Source: Chloroflexota bacterium
Lineage (GTDB): Bacteria > Chloroflexota > Limnocylindria > Limnocylindrales > CSP1-4
Length of the DNA stretch: 41,204 nt
Direction of reading: 5' to 3'
Assembly: GCA_003171065.1 (NCBI GenBank)
Contig: PMXQ01000116.1
Location: 1-41,204 of the forward strand
The notes beneath the pieces were generated by a model. That model searched no databases and was not told the DNA's origin. It saw nothing but the letters and a program-made list of their open reading frames with translations. The translations under genes were made by a program, and so were the position numbers. This document shows, one piece after another, positions 29,946 to 36,009 of the stretch; position 1 is the first letter of the stretch, and the number at the start of each line of letters is the position of its first letter.

Positions 29946-30409
29946 GTTTCGCCCGCCCCGAGTTCGGCGATCCTCGCCACGGTCCGGGCGCGTCGGGCTT
30001 CGGTTTCGTCGACCATCGTCTGCAGGCGGCCGATCTTCCGCTTCAGCGTCTCGATCTGGCCGTCGAAGCTGGCCAGTCGCTCGCACAGGATTCGCCTGCG
30101 CTCGTCCGGATCGGTCGTGGCGTGGAAGGCCGCATGGCCGCGCTCGCGGGCCGCCTCGTCCTCGAGCAATTGGGCGATCTCCGCCAGAGAGAAGCCGGCG
30201 TCGTCGCGCAGGCCCTTTATGAAGCGCAGGCGTTCGAGGTCCGTCTCGTCGTACAGACGGTAGTCGCCCTCGGATCGGGCGGCCGGCTTGAGCAGCCCGA
30301 CCTCTTCGTAGTAGCGCACCGAACGCGGGGTCAGTCCCACGTCCAGCGCCGCCTCGTGAATGCGCAGCAATCGGGCCGACTCAGGCGGCCGCTCGGTGGT
30401 GTCGGTCAT
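29939..30409 (-). CDS. MerR-family transcriptional regulator
   Basis: 156 residues. The N-terminal winged helix-turn-helix reads RIHEAALDVGLTPRSVRYYEEVGLL (residues about 16-40), then DYRLYDETDLERLRFIKGLRDDAGFSLAEI, and a long dimerisation helix (about 100-150, heptad-like) ends the protein. There is no large ligand domain and no conserved metal-binding Cys set; the only notable Cys residues are in the helix (RILCERL) and at the last position. It is the first gene of the operon with two MFS pumps, so it likely controls them and itself. ATG 30409 has TAGGAT six bases upstream and no Shine-Dalgarno: probable leaderless start. The inducer is unknown. Confidence 0.9.
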   Translation of the reverse strand: MTDTTERPPESARLLRIHEAALDVGLTPRSVRYYEEVGLLKPAARSEGDYRLYDETDLERLRFIKGLRDDAGFSLAEIAQLLEDEAARERGHAAFHATTDPDERRRILCERLASFDGQIETLKRKIGRLQTMVDETEARRARTVARIAELGAGETC

Positions 30410-30415
30410 GGCTGC

Positions 30416-30440
30416 ATCCTACCGCAACCTTGCCGCACAC
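30416..30440 (-). promoter_or_regulatory. merR promoter with GCAA-GG-TTGC dyad
   Basis: On the minus strand TAGGAT (30416-30421) ends six bases before the merR ATG. Immediately upstream lies an imperfect dyad containing GCAAGGTTGC, in the spacer where MerR proteins normally bind. A -35 with the 19-base spacer usual for MerR promoters would be TCTCAC, a poor match, as expected for promoters that need MerR activation. Confidence 0.4.
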
Positions 30441-30499
30441 GTGAGAGTTGAGTCAGGAGAACCGCCGGCCGGGGCAGGCCTGGTCGAGGCCGCGCCGGC

Positions 30500-33043
30500 C
30501 TACGGGTTCGTGATGATGGACGGCGCCCGCAGGACGACCTGCCACGTCAGGCCGCCGTCGGTGGTCTCCATCAGCGCGTCCGGCGAGTCCGAGTAACCGG
30601 GAGCCCGGACGAGCCAGCCGGTATTGGCATCGACGAACGCGAAGTCGTGAACTTCCACCGGCGTGTAGCCGAGCTTCTTCCACGTCTCCCCGAAGTTGGA
30701 GCTCACCCAGAAGCTGGTGCCCGAGATCCCGATCAGGTTGGCGCCGGCGACGCGCACGGTGTCCACCGGGACGGTCGAGCCCGCTGCCTGCCAGGCCAGA
30801 TGCCAGCTGGCTCCACCGTCGCTGGTCTCGTAGCGACCCACGGCGGTATTGCCCGCCGCCCCGATACTGAAGCGGACGAGCAGTCGCCCGCTTCCGCCGG
30901 GCGTCAGCTCCATGGCCAGCGGCGGCGACCACGCGGAAGCTCCCGATGGCGCCTCGAGCGTCTGGGACGTCCACGTCCGGCCACCGTCGAAGGTCAGCTT
31001 CAGAAGCGGCGGACCAGATTGCTGGTCGGCGCCGGCCGCCATCGTGTAGGCGATGCCGTAGCCGATGGTCGAACTGATCCATGTGATCGGTGTCGCATAC
31101 GTCTGCGTGACCGGGCCCTGGAACGTCAGCCCGCCGTCGTCGGTCGTGAACGTCGCGCAGCCCACCTCTTCCTGCCCGGCGATGAGCTGCGGGCAGCGTG
31201 CGACGACGCCGTGGCTCGCGTCCACGAAGTGGGCCCAGGTCCAGTTCGGGTCGGTGGCATTGGTCGGCAGGTCGGTCGAGGTCCATGTCTTGCCCCCGTC
31301 CGACGTGCGGTACACCGGAGTCCGGGCGTAGACGGTCGCCCCCGGATCCGACGAATCTGACGAGACCAGCCAGCCGTGCTGGGCGTCGACGAACTGGATC
31401 GTGCCCGAGGCCGGGAGCGGGCTGCCCGAGTCCCAGGTCTGGCCGCCGTCGGCCGTCCAGAACAGGCTCGTGCCGACGACAGCCCAGCCGTGAGTGGCAT
31501 CGAGCCAGTCCGTGAGCGGCTCGCGCGCCCGCTGTGCTTCCGAGACAGGGTTCATGGTGCAGCAGGGCGGGGCCGCGGGAACTACCGGCGTCGGTGTCGG
31601 GCCGCCATTGGAAGGCTGCCAGAGCATGGGCCGCCAGGTCTTCCCGCCGTCCGAGGTGGCGAGGAGGCGGTAGCAGGCAAGGATGATGCCGCTCATCATG
31701 CCCGACGGCGCGCAGGCGTCGATCGTCACCCACGCGTCCGTGGCGGAGAGCGTGCGTGCTGAGGCCACCAGACTCATGCTCCCGGTGGGGACGAGCGCCT
31801 GGATGCTGGAAAAGGCGAACGTGGACGTCTGCCCGCCGGGCGCCTCAAGGACGAGGCCGTCGGGCGCGGAGCCCGTGTTCGAGGAAACGATCTTCTGGTA
31901 TCCCGCAAGATCGCCGGCCTCGTCCCGAATCTCGCTGACCGCCCCCACGGTCTCGAAGCTGTCGACCGTCCAGCTGCTCCCGGCATCCCCGCTTGTCCAG
32001 GTAACCCAGGCAGCCGATTGGGTTCCGGTCTGATAGGCGAGGCCGTGGAGCACGAGCTTCCCGGGGGAACTGAGAGGCGCGGCCTCCTGGCTGTAGCTTG
32101 AATACCCTGCCGGGAGCGGCAACGCAACCGCCGCCCATGTCTTCCCGCCGTCGAGGGTGTGCACCATGGCGCCACTCTTTGAGTATCCCCAGCCTTCCTT
32201 TGCGGAGACAAAGTGGACGCCTCTCGGCGCGGTGGAGAGGTTCGCGGTGTCGACGAGCGGCGACCAGGTGGCGCCGCCGTCGGTTGTCCCGTACAGCCAA
32301 AAGACGCCTGGGAGGTTGACCAGCAGCAGCCAGCCGTGCTCGGCGTCGACCACGTCGAGTTGGTAGGTGTTGAACCCAGACTGGTCGATGACAACCGCCC
32401 TGGTCCAGGTGAGGCCGCCGTCGCTCGTTCGCAGGACAGTGTTGGTGTATCCCCGGACTTCCGCGGTGGTACTCACGGCCACGAAGGCATGGAGCCGGTC
32501 CACGAACTCGATTCCTGAATGGTCACCGTTGTCCGTGTACGGCACCTGTCGCTGGTCCCAGGTCAGGCCGTCGTCGTCGGTGATGTAGAGAGCCTCGGGC
32601 TGGCCGGTCGCACTTCCGGTGGCCCAACCGAAGCTGGCGTCGAGTGCGCCGTAGGACGCGACGTTGACGGGCAACTCCGCCCAGGTGACTGAAGGCGCCG
32701 GGGTCTCCGACGATGTGACGGCGGGCGACGCGCTGACCAAGGGACCGACCGACGCGCTGGCCGACGGGCCGGCCGAGGACGTCGCGGCAATGGGACCGTG
32801 GTTGGTTCGCCAGAACAGGCCGGCGACGACGATGGCCGCGATGCCCGCGGCAGCGGCCAGGCCGCCCAGGAGGCCAATGCGCCGGCGGAGGCGGGGCGCT
32901 CGCCTGGGCGTCGCGAGCGTCCGGGCCGACTCGTCGAGGCCCAGGCGCGCAACGTGCCCGAATAGCCGATCGGGAGCGTCGCCGGGGACGATCCGCCGGC
33001 GGAGCTCATCGTGAAGTCTCAGCTTGAGTTCCTCGTCGTTCAT
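30500..33043 (-). CDS. membrane-anchored Asp-box (BNR/YCF48-like) beta-propeller protein, candidate anti-sigma factor
   Basis: 847 residues. A cytoplasmic N-terminus of about 55 residues (MNDEELKLRLHDELRRR...), one membrane helix (about 56-78), a Ser/Ala/Pro-rich spacer (85-120), then an extracytoplasmic region with about 12 Asp-box motifs of the form S/T-x-D-G-G-x-T-W (for example TSDGGLTW at 206-213, TTDGGATW at 253-260, TLDGGKTW at 296-303, TADGGQTW, TFDGGRTW, TTDGGLTW near the end). This number suggests two propellers or one large one. The ATG overlaps the stop of the ECF sigma gene by four bases, the place and topology of a transmembrane anti-sigma factor. No HxxxCxxC zinc motif is present, so the anti-sigma role is inference. 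Confidence 0.82.
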   Translation of the reverse strand: MNDEELKLRLHDELRRRIVPGDAPDRLFGHVARLGLDESARTLATPRRAPRLRRRIGLLGGLAAAAGIAAIVVAGLFWRTNHGPIAATSSAGPSASASVGPLVSASPAVTSSETPAPSVTWAELPVNVASYGALDASFGWATGSATGQPEALYITDDDGLTWDQRQVPYTDNGDHSGIEFVDRLHAFVAVSTTAEVRGYTNTVLRTSDGGLTWTRAVVIDQSGFNTYQLDVVDAEHGWLLLVNLPGVFWLYGTTDGGATWSPLVDTANLSTAPRGVHFVSAKEGWGYSKSGAMVHTLDGGKTWAAVALPLPAGYSSYSQEAAPLSSPGKLVLHGLAYQTGTQSAAWVTWTSGDAGSSWTVDSFETVGAVSEIRDEAGDLAGYQKIVSSNTGSAPDGLVLEAPGGQTSTFAFSSIQALVPTGSMSLVASARTLSATDAWVTIDACAPSGMMSGIILACYRLLATSDGGKTWRPMLWQPSNGGPTPTPVVPAAPPCCTMNPVSEAQRAREPLTDWLDATHGWAVVGTSLFWTADGGQTWDSGSPLPASGTIQFVDAQHGWLVSSDSSDPGATVYARTPVYRTSDGGKTWTSTDLPTNATDPNWTWAHFVDASHGVVARCPQLIAGQEEVGCATFTTDDGGLTFQGPVTQTYATPITWISSTIGYGIAYTMAAGADQQSGPPLLKLTFDGGRTWTSQTLEAPSGASAWSPPLAMELTPGGSGRLLVRFSIGAAGNTAVGRYETSDGGASWHLAWQAAGSTVPVDTVRVAGANLIGISGTSFWVSSNFGETWKKLGYTPVEVHDFAFVDANTGWLVRAPGYSDSPDALMETTDGGLTWQVVLRAPSIITNP

Positions 33044-33579
33044 CCCAGTGCCTCCAGGGCAGCACGCAGCTGCCGCATCGAGCTGTGGAGCCTCGATTTC
33101 ACGGTCCCGGCCGGTATCGCCAGCCGCTCGGCTATGTCGTCAACGGACAGATCGATCCAGAAGCGCAGGATGACGACGATCCGAAAGTCGGGATCGAGGG
33201 CGGCCAGGGCACGGCCGAGCACGTCGCGGTCGAGCGTCGCCTGCGCCGGATCGACGTGCCGCTCCTCTTCCATGGTGGCGGGGAGGCGCCGGATCCGGGC
33301 GCGTTTGCGGAGCCGGTCGCGGCAAACGTTGACGAGGATCCGTGCGAACCAGGCCTCGAACCGATCCGGGTCCCGAAGCGCCGCCCGTTGCCGCCACGCG
33401 GAAGTGAACGCGTCCTGGGCCGCGTCCTCGGCCTCCAGGTCATCGCCGAGAATGGCGAAGGCGAGCCGGTACGCGGATTGGACCTGACGTGCGGAGAGCC
33501 GCCGGAAGGCCTCCCCAGTGTCCTGCGCTACCGTTCCCGCGTCTGGCTCCGTTCGAATCCCCTCCGTAAGGCCGTTCAT
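33040..33579 (-). CDS. ECF-type RNA polymerase sigma factor
   Basis: 179 residues with sigma region 2 (about 24-92: AYRLAFAILGDDLEAEDAAQDAFTSAW, then FEAWFARILVNVCRDRLRKR) and region 4 (about 115-172: LDPDFRIVVILRFWIDLSVDDIAERLAIPAGTVKSRLHSSMRQL). Regions 1 and 3 are absent, as in all ECF factors. It is translationally coupled to the downstream membrane propeller protein (ATGA overlap), which probably holds it inactive. Its own promoter region has GAAC-N17-CGTC ending nine bases before the ATG, an ECF-type promoter, so it likely activates itself. The regulon is unknown. Confidence 0.92.
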   Translation of the reverse strand: MNGLTEGIRTEPDAGTVAQDTGEAFRRLSARQVQSAYRLAFAILGDDLEAEDAAQDAFTSAWRQRAALRDPDRFEAWFARILVNVCRDRLRKRARIRRLPATMEEERHVDPAQATLDRDVLGRALAALDPDFRIVVILRFWIDLSVDDIAERLAIPAGTVKSRLHSSMRQLRAALEALG

Positions 33580-33588
33580 GCCCGATAT

Positions 33589-33613
33589 GACGCCGGGTCA
33601 CTCTGTTTCGTTC
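33589..33613 (-). promoter_or_regulatory. ECF-type promoter of the sigma-propeller operon
   Basis: On the minus strand GAAC (33610-33613), exactly 17 bases, then CGTC (33589-33592). GGAAC/TGAAAC with a 16-17 base spacer and CGTC is the general form of ECF-dependent promoters. The start codon follows nine bases after CGTC, so the message would be leaderless or nearly so. It supports autoregulation. Confidence 0.55.
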
Positions 33614-33653
33614 GCGAAGTGGCCGGCCGCCCGGTCGGGCCCAATTGTCGGTC

Positions 33654-33688
33654 GGCGCGCCGTGACAGGCTAGGTGTCACACCGCGCC
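33654..33688. promoter_or_regulatory. 35-bp interrupted dyad between the sigma and nuclease genes
   Basis: GGCGCG-N2-GTGACA-N7-TGTCAC-N2-CGCGCC: two pairs of perfect 6-bp arms around one centre (33671). The right end is 15 bases before the nuclease ATG at 33704. It may be an operator for a dimeric regulator serving the divergent genes, or a hairpin in the nuclease leader. Confidence 0.7.
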
Positions 33689-33703
33689 GCCAGAGTTCGC
33701 GCC

Positions 33704-34969
33704 ATGGAAACCGCCAGGCTGGTCCCACTTCCGTCGCTGCCGGGTCGGCCGGCTTCAGTCAGGGTCGAGTCGGATCGACTCGTCGTCGAGCATCTCGTGC
33801 TGGACGATCAGCCTTTGGCGGCCTTCGTGGCGGATCGTCCGGCGGATGAACGGGCGCTCCTGGTCGAGCGTGCCCTGCGGGTCGGCCTCACGGCGATCCA
33901 GAGCGTCGGCGTAACGGTCAACGTGGACGCGGTTCGGGCCGAGTTCCAGGGGTTGCTGCGCCAGACGGAGGCCGCGAACGAGAAGGCGGCCACTGCCCTG
34001 GACATGATGCTGCGCCAGAACTTCGCGGACGGAGAAGGCCGGCTGCCTCGGACTCTGGAGCGGTTCCTCGGCGACAAGGGCCAGCTGCGAAGCTTCGTTG
34101 ACGAGCTGTTCGACGAGGGCAAGCGCGACAGCGCCATCGGCCGGATCAAGGTGCTGCTCGGCTCGTATTTCGACGGTGACGCCTCGCGGCTCGCCCAGCT
34201 GCTGGACCCAACGCGGCTGGGCTCGCCCCTGCACCAGTTCCGCGTCGAGATGTCCGACGGTTTCGCGAAGCTGAATGAACGCCTCGCGGCACTCGAGGCG
34301 GCGGGGGCGGCCCGCGCTTCCGAGCGGGCGAAGTCGACGGCCAAGGGCGCGGACTTCGAAGACGTGGTCGGGGCCGTGCTCGGCGACATCAGCCGCGGCT
34401 CGGGCGACATCCTCGAACGGACCGGGACGGAGGCCGGCTCGGCCATCGGTTCCAAGAAGGGCGACTTCGTCCTGACGCTGAGCGCCGAGGCGACAGCCGG
34501 GGCGGAGCTGCGGGTCGTGGTCGAGTGCAAGGACCGCTACGTGTCCGGCCGCAATATGCGAGATGAGCTGCGCGACGCCAAGTCGAACCGCGACGCGGCC
34601 GTGGCCCTCGTGGTCTTCAGCCCCGCCCATGCCCCCGCGGGCATTGCCCCGTTCGACCTTCGGGCCGGCGACGTCTACTGCGTGGTGGACCCGGCCGCGC
34701 CGGACGCGGCCACGCTGGAGGCCGCGGTCCGGCTGGCCCGACTGCTGGCCCTGCAGACGCTCCGCGAACGCGACGTCGAGGTCGACGCGGCCGCGATCGC
34801 CAAGGCCCTGAACGGCGTGCGCGAGCAGCTGGAGACCTTGCGCTCGCTCAAGCTGACTCTGACGTCGATCGGGACGAGCGCCAGGGACGTCTACGCGGGG
34901 CTGGACAAGCTCCGCGACGGCATCCTTGCCCGCCTGACGGAGGCCGAGGCGGAGCTCCGGACCCGTTAG
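33704..34969 (+). CDS. coiled-coil protein with PD-(D/E)XK nuclease-like C-terminal domain
   Basis: 421 residues. The N-terminal 200 are helical and charged, with heptad-like stretches (LLRQTEAANEKAATALDMML; FAKLNERLAALEA). The second half contains KGADFEDVVGAVLGDI (residues 214-229), KKGDFVLTL (251-259) and RVVVECKDR (270-278). Together these give E219, D254, E274 and K276, the acidic/ExK set of restriction-endonuclease-like folds. YVSGRNMRDELRDAKSNRDA (279-298) follows, then a helical C-terminus. It has no known full-length family name to me; organisation resembles DUF2130-like proteins. ATG 33704 is preferred; 33674 in the same frame falls inside the dyad. Ku follows 122 bases downstream on the same strand. 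A DNA-end-processing role is inference. Confidence 0.72.
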   Translation: METARLVPLPSLPGRPASVRVESDRLVVEHLVLDDQPLAAFVADRPADERALLVERALRVGLTAIQSVGVTVNVDAVRAEFQGLLRQTEAANEKAATALDMMLRQNFADGEGRLPRTLERFLGDKGQLRSFVDELFDEGKRDSAIGRIKVLLGSYFDGDASRLAQLLDPTRLGSPLHQFRVEMSDGFAKLNERLAALEAAGAARASERAKSTAKGADFEDVVGAVLGDISRGSGDILERTGTEAGSAIGSKKGDFVLTLSAEATAGAELRVVVECKDRYVSGRNMRDELRDAKSNRDAAVALVVFSPAHAPAGIAPFDLRAGDVYCVVDPAAPDAATLEAAVRLARLLALQTLRERDVEVDAAAIAKALNGVREQLETLRSLKLTLTSIGTSARDVYAGLDKLRDGILARLTEAEAELRTR

Positions 34970-35091: not shown

Positions 35092-36009
35092 ATGCCGCGT
35101 TCAATGTGGAAAGGTGCCATCCAGTTCGGGCTGGTCACGATCCCCGTCAAGATGTACCTGGCCACTGAGTCGAAGGGCGTCAGCTTCAACATGCTCCACA
35201 CCGCGTGCCGCGGCAGGATCCAGATGAAGACCTATTGCCCGACCGACGACGAGATCATCGAACGCAGCGATACGGTGCGCGGGTACGAGGTCGCGCCGGA
35301 CCGGTACGTCGTCATCACGGACGAGGACCTGGCGTCAGTCCCGCTCAAGACGGTCCGCGCCATCGAGATCGAGCAGTTCGTGCCGGTCGACTCAAGCGGC
35401 GAAGCCACCCGCTTCGTCAAGCAGGCCTACTACCTGGAGCCGGAGCCGGTCGCCCGCAAGGCGTTCTTCCTGCTCAAACAGGTCCTGGCCAAACAGCGTC
35501 TTCGGGCCGTCTGCAAGATCGTCCTGCGCGATCGCGAGCAGCTCGCCGCCCTCGACCCGTTCGCCAGCACGATCATGCTCTCGACGCTCTACTGGCCCGA
35601 CGAGGTCCGCTCGGTGGGAGACCTGGCGATTCCCGAGGATGACGCCGAGGTCAGGCCCGCCGAGCTGGCGATGGCCGAGCAGCTGGTCGCGATGATGACC
35701 GGCCAGTTCGACCCAAAGGCCTATCGAGACGAATACCGCGACGCGCTCATGGGGATGATCGAGGCCAAGTCCGCCGGCGAGGAGATCGCCGAACCGGCCG
35801 CCGCGCCGGCCGCAAAGCTGACGGATCTCGTCGCAGCTCTGGAGGCGAGCGTGGCCGCCGCGAAAGCCGCCCGCCAGGCGGCGCCGGAAGCAATCGCTGC
35901 GGCGTCGACATCCAGGAAGACGCGCAAGCCCACGCCCGTCGCCGTCCCGGTCATGGCCGAGGAGCCCGAAGCCGAGGCCGTTCCGGCCCGCCGCCGCAAG
36001 TCCGCCTGA
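35092..36009 (+). CDS. ku: non-homologous end-joining protein Ku
   Basis: Homodimeric ring that binds double-strand DNA ends. 305 residues. Seen: the standard opening MWKGAIQFGLVTIPVKMY, then SFNMLHTACRGRIQMKTYCP, RGYEVAPDRYVVITDEDL, IEIEQFVPVD, AYYLEPEP, and LSTLYWPDEVR, all along the bacterial Ku core (about 1-255). The C-terminal 50 residues are low complexity, Ala/Pro/Lys/Arg-rich (SRKTRKPTPV, PARRRKSA), like the basic tails that aid DNA binding in bacterial Ku. LigD, the usual partner, is not in the window. Upstream is a PD-(D/E)XK-like protein on the same strand. Confidence 0.95.
   Translation: MPRSMWKGAIQFGLVTIPVKMYLATESKGVSFNMLHTACRGRIQMKTYCPTDDEIIERSDTVRGYEVAPDRYVVITDEDLASVPLKTVRAIEIEQFVPVDSSGEATRFVKQAYYLEPEPVARKAFFLLKQVLAKQRLRAVCKIVLRDREQLAALDPFASTIMLSTLYWPDEVRSVGDLAIPEDDAEVRPAELAMAEQLVAMMTGQFDPKAYRDEYRDALMGMIEAKSAGEEIAEPAAAPAAKLTDLVAALEASVAAAKAARQAAPEAIAAASTSRKTRKPTPVAVPVMAEEPEAEAVPARRRKSA

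Follow-up and report, generated by a model that had tools for sequence, protein, structure and literature searches.

A predicted ECF anti-sigma factor with an Asp-box propeller outer region in a Chloroflexota bacterium

The window analyzed here is a stretch of 41,204 nucleotides from a Chloroflexota bacterium (GTDB lineage Limnocylindria; Limnocylindrales; CSP1-4), comprising positions 1 to 41,204 of contig PMXQ01000116.1 in assembly GCA_003171065.1. It encodes an extracytoplasmic function (ECF) sigma factor and, overlapping it by four nucleotides, a large membrane-anchored partner that is predicted to be its anti-sigma factor. The features of this two-gene locus, all on the minus strand, are as follows.

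33040..33579 (-): ECF sigma factor gene, 179 amino acids, regions 2 and 4 (Pfam PF04542 and PF04545, NCBIfam TIGR02937)
30500..33043 (-): partner gene, 847 amino acids, predicted to encode an anti-sigma factor whose outer region carries Asp-boxes
33040..33043 (-): ATGA in which the sigma stop codon and the partner start codon overlap; a 4-nucleotide overlap in 21/21 closest sigma relatives (window included)
33605..33613 (-): GAACGAAAC, -35 element of the predicted sigma gene promoter
33589..33592 (-): CGTC, predicted -10 element, 17 nucleotides after GAAC
33579 (-): predicted transcription start, on or close to the A of the sigma ATG (from CGTC-to-ATG spacing in relatives and comparison with Tt-RpoE1)
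32879..33043 (-): partner residues 1-55, predicted two-helix cytoplasmic anti-sigma domain without cysteine (AlphaFold2 helices 4-17 and 25-36, low confidence)
32822..32878 (-): partner residues 56-74, predicted membrane helix (Kyte-Doolittle hydropathy; AlphaFold2 helix 51-81)
32669..32800 (-): partner residues 82-125, predicted extracytoplasmic linker (S, T, P or A make up 30 of 44 residues; pLDDT below 50 at 81-124)
31619..32668 (-): partner residues 126-475, first beta-rich block, six strict Asp-boxes, probably one propeller
30524..31516 (-): partner residues 510-840, second beta-rich block, seven strict Asp-boxes, probably one propeller

The sigma protein is short and has sigma-70 regions 2 and 4 only, and is on these grounds an ECF (group IV) factor. 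Sigma70_r2 (residues 35-95, E 2.9e-14), Sigma70_r4 (residues 124-173, E 5.5e-12), and the overlapping Sigma70_r4_2 all score over their Pfam cut-offs, three more Pfam families match below theirs, and TIGR02937 scores 84.8 bits (cut-off 42.9). Membership in SigE-fam_strep (TIGR02983) was rejected, the score of 117.1 bits falling below the curated cut-off of 141.55.

The original prediction, made from the letters alone, had described the partner as joined to the sigma gene by ATGA, with a short cytoplasmic N-terminus, one membrane helix, and about 12 Asp-boxes, downstream of a GAAC-N17-CGTC site. Each of these elements was recovered: the overlap lies at 33043-33040; 55 residues precede a hydrophobic segment at 56-74, the only one in the Kyte-Doolittle profile; the strict count is 13 boxes, six in residues 155-470 and seven in residues 530-834; and the promoter-like site spans 33613-33589, with CGTC nine nucleotides before the ATG. 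A scan of 30300-33800 for sigma-70 promoters and terminators found none. Repeated S-x-D-x-G-x-T-W boxes in a beta-rich protein were the basis for assigning the Asp-box fold, and Pfam matches over cut-off agree (Ycf48/PSII_BNR, 4.8e-19; Sortilin-Vps10, 4.6e-16; BNR, 1.1e-13; BNR_2, 2.7e-11); by its boxes, its Pfam matches, and its beta-rich model, the outer region of the partner is an Asp-box beta-propeller protein. The AlphaFold2 model, built from 21 aligned relatives (mean pLDDT 69.0, pTM 0.46; an earlier run with six sequences and a mean pLDDT of 56.8 was set aside), has helices at 4-17 and 25-36, a long helix at 51-81, disorder to 124, and two beta-rich blocks, probably tandem propellers. 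The predicted layout of sigma-adjacent gene, cytoplasmic N-terminus, membrane helix, and outer domain is that of a membrane-bound anti-sigma factor. A class I zinc anti-sigma domain (ZAS) was considered and rejected; the partner has no HxxxCxxC motif and no cysteine in residues 1-55.

Conservation of the pairing was followed from the sigma side in the first 73 places of a sigma search, ordered by sigma score only; 72 could be parsed, the remaining locus having an in-frame TAG. At all 72, the downstream open reading frame (ORF) has a first hydrophobic segment starting at residue 30-105. It overlaps the sigma gene by 4 nucleotides in 62/72 and by 1-14 nucleotides in 70/72, as called by a script that, by choosing the longest ORF downstream and the start codon closest to the overlap, favours overlaps. 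The original prediction had proposed a check for homologous sigma/propeller pairs in other genomes, and the pairing is kept: every partner at ranks 1-21 (window included) is an Asp-box protein with 5-14 strict boxes and a 4-nucleotide overlap (start codon ATG in 20, GTG in one), and none of the 51 lower-ranked partners has at least four boxes. Outer parts among the latter are varied (Kelch, NfeD, mostly unnamed), several of these proteins carry additional hydrophobic segments, and the partner at rank 49 (L250) has three Asp-boxes and a Sortilin family match over cut-off. The HxxxCxxC zinc motif is absent from the first 110 residues of all 72 partners, the window's included.

A search from the propeller side found matches in 21 of 61 genomes (source genome included), and an ECF sigma ORF was present at 25 of 31 loci. 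Six loci lacked one: two (L019 and L030) represent one gene, L010 is found where a contig ends, and a longer stretch reveals a sigma gene near L022. The searches from the sigma side and from the propeller side agree, and the pairing is therefore taken as real. In a maximum-likelihood tree built quickly from 113 sigma rows (72 from the sigma-first set, 27 further ones from the source genome, and 14 from other loci), the label of at least four Asp-boxes (35 rows) changes seven times, against a mean of 30.2 in shuffles and with 0/500 as low, although near-copies alone make a tree label cluster. Well supported branches force at least five label changes, so the propeller has been gained, lost, or swapped several times. 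Partners at ranks 1-21 fall into two sizes that alternate between close relatives, 471-507 amino acids (5-7 boxes) and 847-930 amino acids (13-14 boxes), which probably contain one propeller and two, respectively. Sister sigma factors at ranks 5 and 6 have partners of 475 and 915 amino acids, and those at ranks 10 and 18 have partners of 923 and 486, which suggests that an entire propeller was gained or lost recently.

The genes around the pair are less constant. Eight window neighbours were tested in stretches of 4-9 kb at 22 loci; several occur in G013 and none in the other 21. Since the neighbours change while the pair stays, they are probably bystanders. A divergent gene of 431 amino acids at 33674-34969 (+) has no Pfam match over cut-off, and part of it lies beside the pair in G013 too; a Ku gene follows at 35092-36009.

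The N-terminal region of the partner is shared more widely than its outer region. Thirty-one aligned N-termini (17 from ranks 1-21 and 14 from lower ranks, two Kelch) have a common pattern of a first helix rich in charged residues (ELExRLRxxL), a proline that hardly varies, and a second helix; the N-termini of NfeD partners look alike by eye only. A profile of this region, run over 151 genomes of the phylum, gave 20 matches in seven genomes, all of the same class, and an ECF sigma gene lies directly upstream of 20/20. Five of these were in the alignment behind the profile, leaving 15/15 outside it, some of them already known as sigma partners in the source genome; at most 41 candidates per genome were scored, and misses are likely. 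By this comparison it is the predicted N-terminal domain, rather than the propeller, that goes with the sigma factor. An apparent natural fusion of sigma and partner (G017:C135, L272) was discarded; its 882-residue frame arises from reading stop to stop upstream of the sigma gene, and the partner lies in another frame.

Promoter motifs were counted in the 150 nucleotides before the aligned sigma start. GAAC-N13-18-C[GA]TC occurs there at 18/21 loci of the sigma clade with Asp-box partners (the Asp-box clade), compared with 0.9 loci on average and at most 4 in 200 dinucleotide shuffles, and inside the sigma genes of that clade at 1/21; the earlier suggestion that the GAAC-N17-CGTC site fits self-activation is thus supported by comparison. 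The same motif precedes 28/51 sigma genes of other clades (shuffled mean 2.1; controls 1/50 and 0/51). The exact elements follow the clades: GAACGAA lies within 150 nucleotides upstream at 19/21 related loci vs 2/51 in other sigma clades, and GAAC is followed by GAA in 17/19 instances in the Asp-box clade and by CTT or GTT in 22/28 elsewhere. With the -10 element relaxed to NNTC, 21/21 loci have GAACG[AT][AT] and NNTC 17-18 nucleotides after GAAC, and the first in-frame ATG follows at 9 nucleotides (16 loci), 12 nucleotides (four), or 2 nucleotides (one); when both groups are held to a stricter rule, an ATG at 9 nucleotides is the first in-frame start at 13/18 loci of the Asp-box clade and at 1/27 elsewhere. 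A spacing of 9 or 12 nucleotides between the -10 element and the start is typical of the Asp-box clade and uncommon in the other clades studied. In the promoter of Tt-RpoE1 from Thermoanaerobacter tengcongensis, CGTC occupies -13 to -10 (PMC3397946); if that spacing is applied here, the A of the sigma ATG becomes +1 and the message is probably leaderless. The sigma factor thus probably activates its own gene via the predicted GAACGAAAC-N12-CGTC promoter and is probably expressed from a near-leaderless message, on which the two genes would be co-transcribed.

The pattern GAACGAAAC-N11-14-CGTC has one match in the source genome, the promoter of the sigma gene itself, and 19 matches in 21 genomes, eight of them before sigma genes of the Asp-box clade (reversed control, six). 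A looser pattern gives six source-genome sites (reversed, none), two of which precede sigma genes of the clade (C46 and C147). The other four are inside stop-to-stop frames, one close before another ECF sigma gene (C93); such a location is a weak test in GC-rich DNA, because the C147 promoter is also inside a frame. The bare GAAC-N17-CGTC motif, which had been proposed for a genome search, proved nonspecific, with 294 exact matches in the source genome vs 99 for the reversed pattern.

Pairs of this general layout are numerous in the source genome (3.0 Mb, 88% complete), which has 37 Sigma70_r2 matches, three of them taken as non-ECF (L177, L191, and L205). Thirty-one of the 37 downstream ORFs have a hydrophobic segment starting at residue 30-105, and 29 of those overlap the sigma gene; six (window's included) have at least four Asp-boxes, and three have the zinc motif. 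A Pfam scan of 34 partners listed no match for 23, Asp-box families for six, Kelch for one, NfeD for one, a zinc finger just under cut-off for one, and weak matches for two. In the NfeD case (L174:1229-2812, C104), next to an ECF sigma gene, a look-alike N-terminus and membrane helix are followed by an NfeD1b/NfeD membrane protein; partners at ranks 32, 46, 50, 53, 56, 64, 65, 68, 70, and 72 appear to be of the same type from their length, hydrophobic pattern, and sigma clade, L174 being the one run against Pfam. Kelch-repeat outer domains occur on the ECF partners L188, L238, and L258; in the last (817 amino acids), Kelch matches extend over much of the protein, which may comprise two propellers. 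One contig carries two ECF sigma/Asp-box pairs a short distance apart (L194, C30:17400-26000), and at L184/L309 (C3:3613-4277), a related ECF sigma gene has an in-frame TAG while the partner N-terminus in the profile match is free of stops.

We put at roughly 80% the probability that the partner is a membrane-bound anti-sigma factor that uses an Asp-box propeller as its input module, and that the pair forms a self-contained signalling unit. In the mechanism that we envisage, the sigma factor would transcribe its own gene from the GAACGAAAC-N12-CGTC promoter, as the conservation of that site suggests, and the partner would be made from the same message via the ATGA overlap. The two-helix N-terminal domain would hold the sigma factor at the membrane until the outer Asp-box region binds some ligand or protein. 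Binding would alter the partner, most likely by exposing the linker or membrane helix to stepwise proteolysis ending with a site-2 (M50) protease, and the freed sigma factor would raise expression of its own operon and perhaps of a small set of targets. The steps of N-terminal holding, outer sensing, and release are drawn by analogy with Tt-TolB, whose short N-terminus binds and inhibits its sigma factor, and with RsgI proteins, which have exchangeable sensors and proteolytic release. M50 proteases are present in the source genome as in 14/14 control genomes, and so are permissive for the membrane cut only. As to the ligand, a GH74- or sialidase-like fold hints at a glycan and a relation to Ycf48 hints at a protein.

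Several results weigh against this interpretation. In the model, pLDDT is below 50 at residues 18-24 and 34-58, and the N-terminal helices are of low confidence; the partner N-terminus has no Pfam or NCBIfam match at E 0.1, and its profile shows no relation to solved anti-sigma structures (11 unrelated matches, best E 0.1). That profile recognizes seven places in the source genome vs 31 partners with an early membrane segment, which leaves a common origin of all these N-termini unsupported. Residue covariation between sigma factor and N-terminus (mutual information with average product correction, APC; 97 pairs) gave no usable signal, with one of 6804 column pairs above the maximum of 100 permutations. 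Distances among sigma factors and among N-termini do correlate (Spearman 0.28 over 110 pairs, 0/500 permutations as high), yet the value is modest and shared descent alone can give such a correlation. The main Asp-box clade (23 sigma rows) has an SH-aLRT of 85, the promoter motif also occurs in the control stretch from -450 to -300 at 4/19 Asp-box clade loci, and promoter-pattern searches of the source genome gave no convincing target beyond the operon itself. Asp-box proteins of the same genus and class (L020, L031, and L019/L030) have no adjacent sigma gene in longer stretches, nor do 77 of the 80 best propeller matches in other genomes, some of these loci being cut by contig ends. The original prediction had stated that propeller homologues routinely found without a sigma gene would count against it, and taken literally, that is the outcome; we do not regard it as a refutation, because these are matches to the generic Asp-box fold and it is the predicted N-terminal domain that goes with the sigma factor. 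The claim of an anti-sigma factor with a propeller input module is thus supported by comparison, through the kept pairing and the N-terminal profile, and contact with the sigma factor stays at the level of prediction.

An adjacent ECF sigma gene was found at three of the 80 loci in the wider collection, two on contigs labelled Chloroflexi and one on a contig labelled Actinobacteria, and a fourth locus has a distant one. The Chloroflexi pairs (PMBG01000054.1 and PLOC01000050.1) have sigma factors equal to those of G012 and G019 on the tree, and hence are not independent, though they do point to the phylum of the clade. At the third (L037:1-2614, VAYX01000195.1), a contig-cut sigma ORF overlaps an ORF whose product has a membrane segment near its N-terminus and 11 Asp-boxes, possibly a sigma/propeller pair in another phylum.

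The sigma-less Asp-box proteins just described also bear on a rival explanation, in which the sigma factor is not regulated by the propeller protein but has it as an output: a surface binding or enzyme-like protein in a self-activated operon whose true regulator lies elsewhere. This would also accommodate the observation that the clearest promoter matches in the source genome precede two sigma/Asp-box operons of the Asp-box clade. We consider it unlikely: the N-terminal pattern recurs in partners whose outer domains differ, every gene that its profile matches lies next to an ECF sigma gene, and none of the eight neighbour genes tested is kept beside the pair outside G013.

Two further possibilities concern what the outer region of an anti-sigma factor of this kind would do. 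It may act as a scaffold on a protein or on the envelope, as Ycf48 binds D1, with loss of the interaction as the signal in place of ligand sensing or proteolysis; a single-sequence search of solved structures supports this version, all six matches being Ycf48/HCF136 proteins, and the Asp-box itself has been described as a structural element, with ligand binding by it judged highly unlikely (PMC2716378). A profile of six partner relatives nevertheless places sialidases (best E 5.7e-10) beside Ycf48, and Foldseek, run with the whole model against the Protein Data Bank (PDB), ranks GH74 proteins and sortilin above Ycf48. We hold the scaffold version to be clearly less probable than not. The same results bring in the second possibility, that the outer region is an active GH74- or sialidase-type hydrolase that also senses, comparable to the weakly active GH10 domain of RsgI6. 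GH74 glycoside hydrolases use two catalytic acidic residues. Foldseek places 1-15 are all GH74 tandem propellers or xyloglucan-degrading enzymes (E 7.3e-15 to 7.7e-12), and the six-relative profile matches, besides the sialidases, part of a GH74 xyloglucan hydrolase (E 1.3e-7). TM-scores by query length in those 15 rows are 0.21-0.32, however, which supports the fold class and not its detail, and no GH74 model is listed among Pfam and NCBIfam matches at E 0.1; an active hydrolase seems to us improbable, more so than the output explanation.

If the anti-sigma interpretation is correct, the known inputs of ECF signalling would extend to Asp-box propellers, whose fold occurs in glycosidases and sorting receptors, and a single genus would combine related inner domains with differing outer domains. 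One scaffold seems to have been expanded and re-fitted in this lineage, with similar N-termini and other outer domains. A broader proposal, to which we give slightly less than even odds, is that the genus holds an array of surface receptors built on one short zinc-free anti-sigma domain in some thirty copies per genome, with interchangeable outer domains (single or tandem Asp-box propellers, Kelch propellers, NfeD, and many unnamed), clade-specific promoters (GAACGAA and near-leaderless here, GAACCTT or GAACGTT elsewhere), and insulated channels. The "one domain" part of this proposal is weakened by the N-terminal profile, which finds seven places in the source genome where 31/37 partners have an early membrane segment. 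The natural sensor swaps and clade-following promoters would offer a way to ask how anti-sigma specificity survives a change of sensor, and the pairs are candidates for separate sigma/anti-sigma channels from a little-studied lineage.

TolB domains and WD40 repeats form propellers, and CnrY is not known to contain zinc. A title- and abstract-level literature search, mostly without subscription journals, had among its matches listed none on Asp-box, BNR, or Kelch outer domains of ECF anti-sigma factors, which is weak evidence of absence. The closest precedent is Tt-TolB of T. tengcongensis, an experimentally shown ECF anti-sigma factor of 645 amino acids with an outer TolB-annotated domain, a membrane segment at 39-61, and an N-terminus (1-39) that binds and inhibits the sigma factor; its gene lies 2 bp after that of Tt-RpoE1 (PMC3397946). 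As in the window, an ECF sigma gene is followed by a partner with one membrane segment and a large outer region, the -10 element is CGTC, and the autoregulation reported for Tt-RpoE1/Tt-TolB matches the self-activation predicted here; unlike the Asp-box pair, Tt-TolB has TolB-type repeats, its -35 element is tGTTAC, and it is one studied pair (PMC3397946). The word "propeller" is absent from that paper (PMC3397946). With this precedent, and with Asp-box partners common in the genus (ranks 1-21), a large propeller sensor is less unusual than originally supposed.

The SigI/RsgI systems of Clostridium thermocellum resemble the source genome in having paralogous pairs in one genome, mostly overlapping genes, and autoregulation, and they combine a shared inner domain and membrane segment with exchangeable outer sensors (CBM3, PA14, and GH10) (PMC4711584, PMC12203970). 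The sigma factors of the SigI type are treated there as distinct from the ECF group, to which the sigma factor here belongs; RsgI has an N-terminal segment of about 165 residues and an autocleaving periplasmic domain (PMC4711584, PMC12203970), compared with an N-terminus of about 55 residues here. Many of the sensors here, unlike those of RsgI, are propellers or unnamed. CnrY, the class II partner of CnrH, is a short two-helix anti-sigma factor that wraps its sigma factor (PMC8103513, PMC7406223). Two helices are predicted here with low confidence; no sequence relation between CnrY and the partner N-terminus was detected. ECF57 sigma factors carry WD40-like repeats in a C-terminal extension of the sigma factor itself (PMC8999054), in contrast to the separate propeller protein here. 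An ECF anti-sigma factor with a TolB-type outer domain (Tt-TolB) and, for SigI-type factors, exchangeable sensors (RsgI) are already known, and the predicted Asp-box input is a new variation; the wider pattern of similar inner domains, many outer domains, and promoters that follow the sigma clades is more interesting than the single pair.

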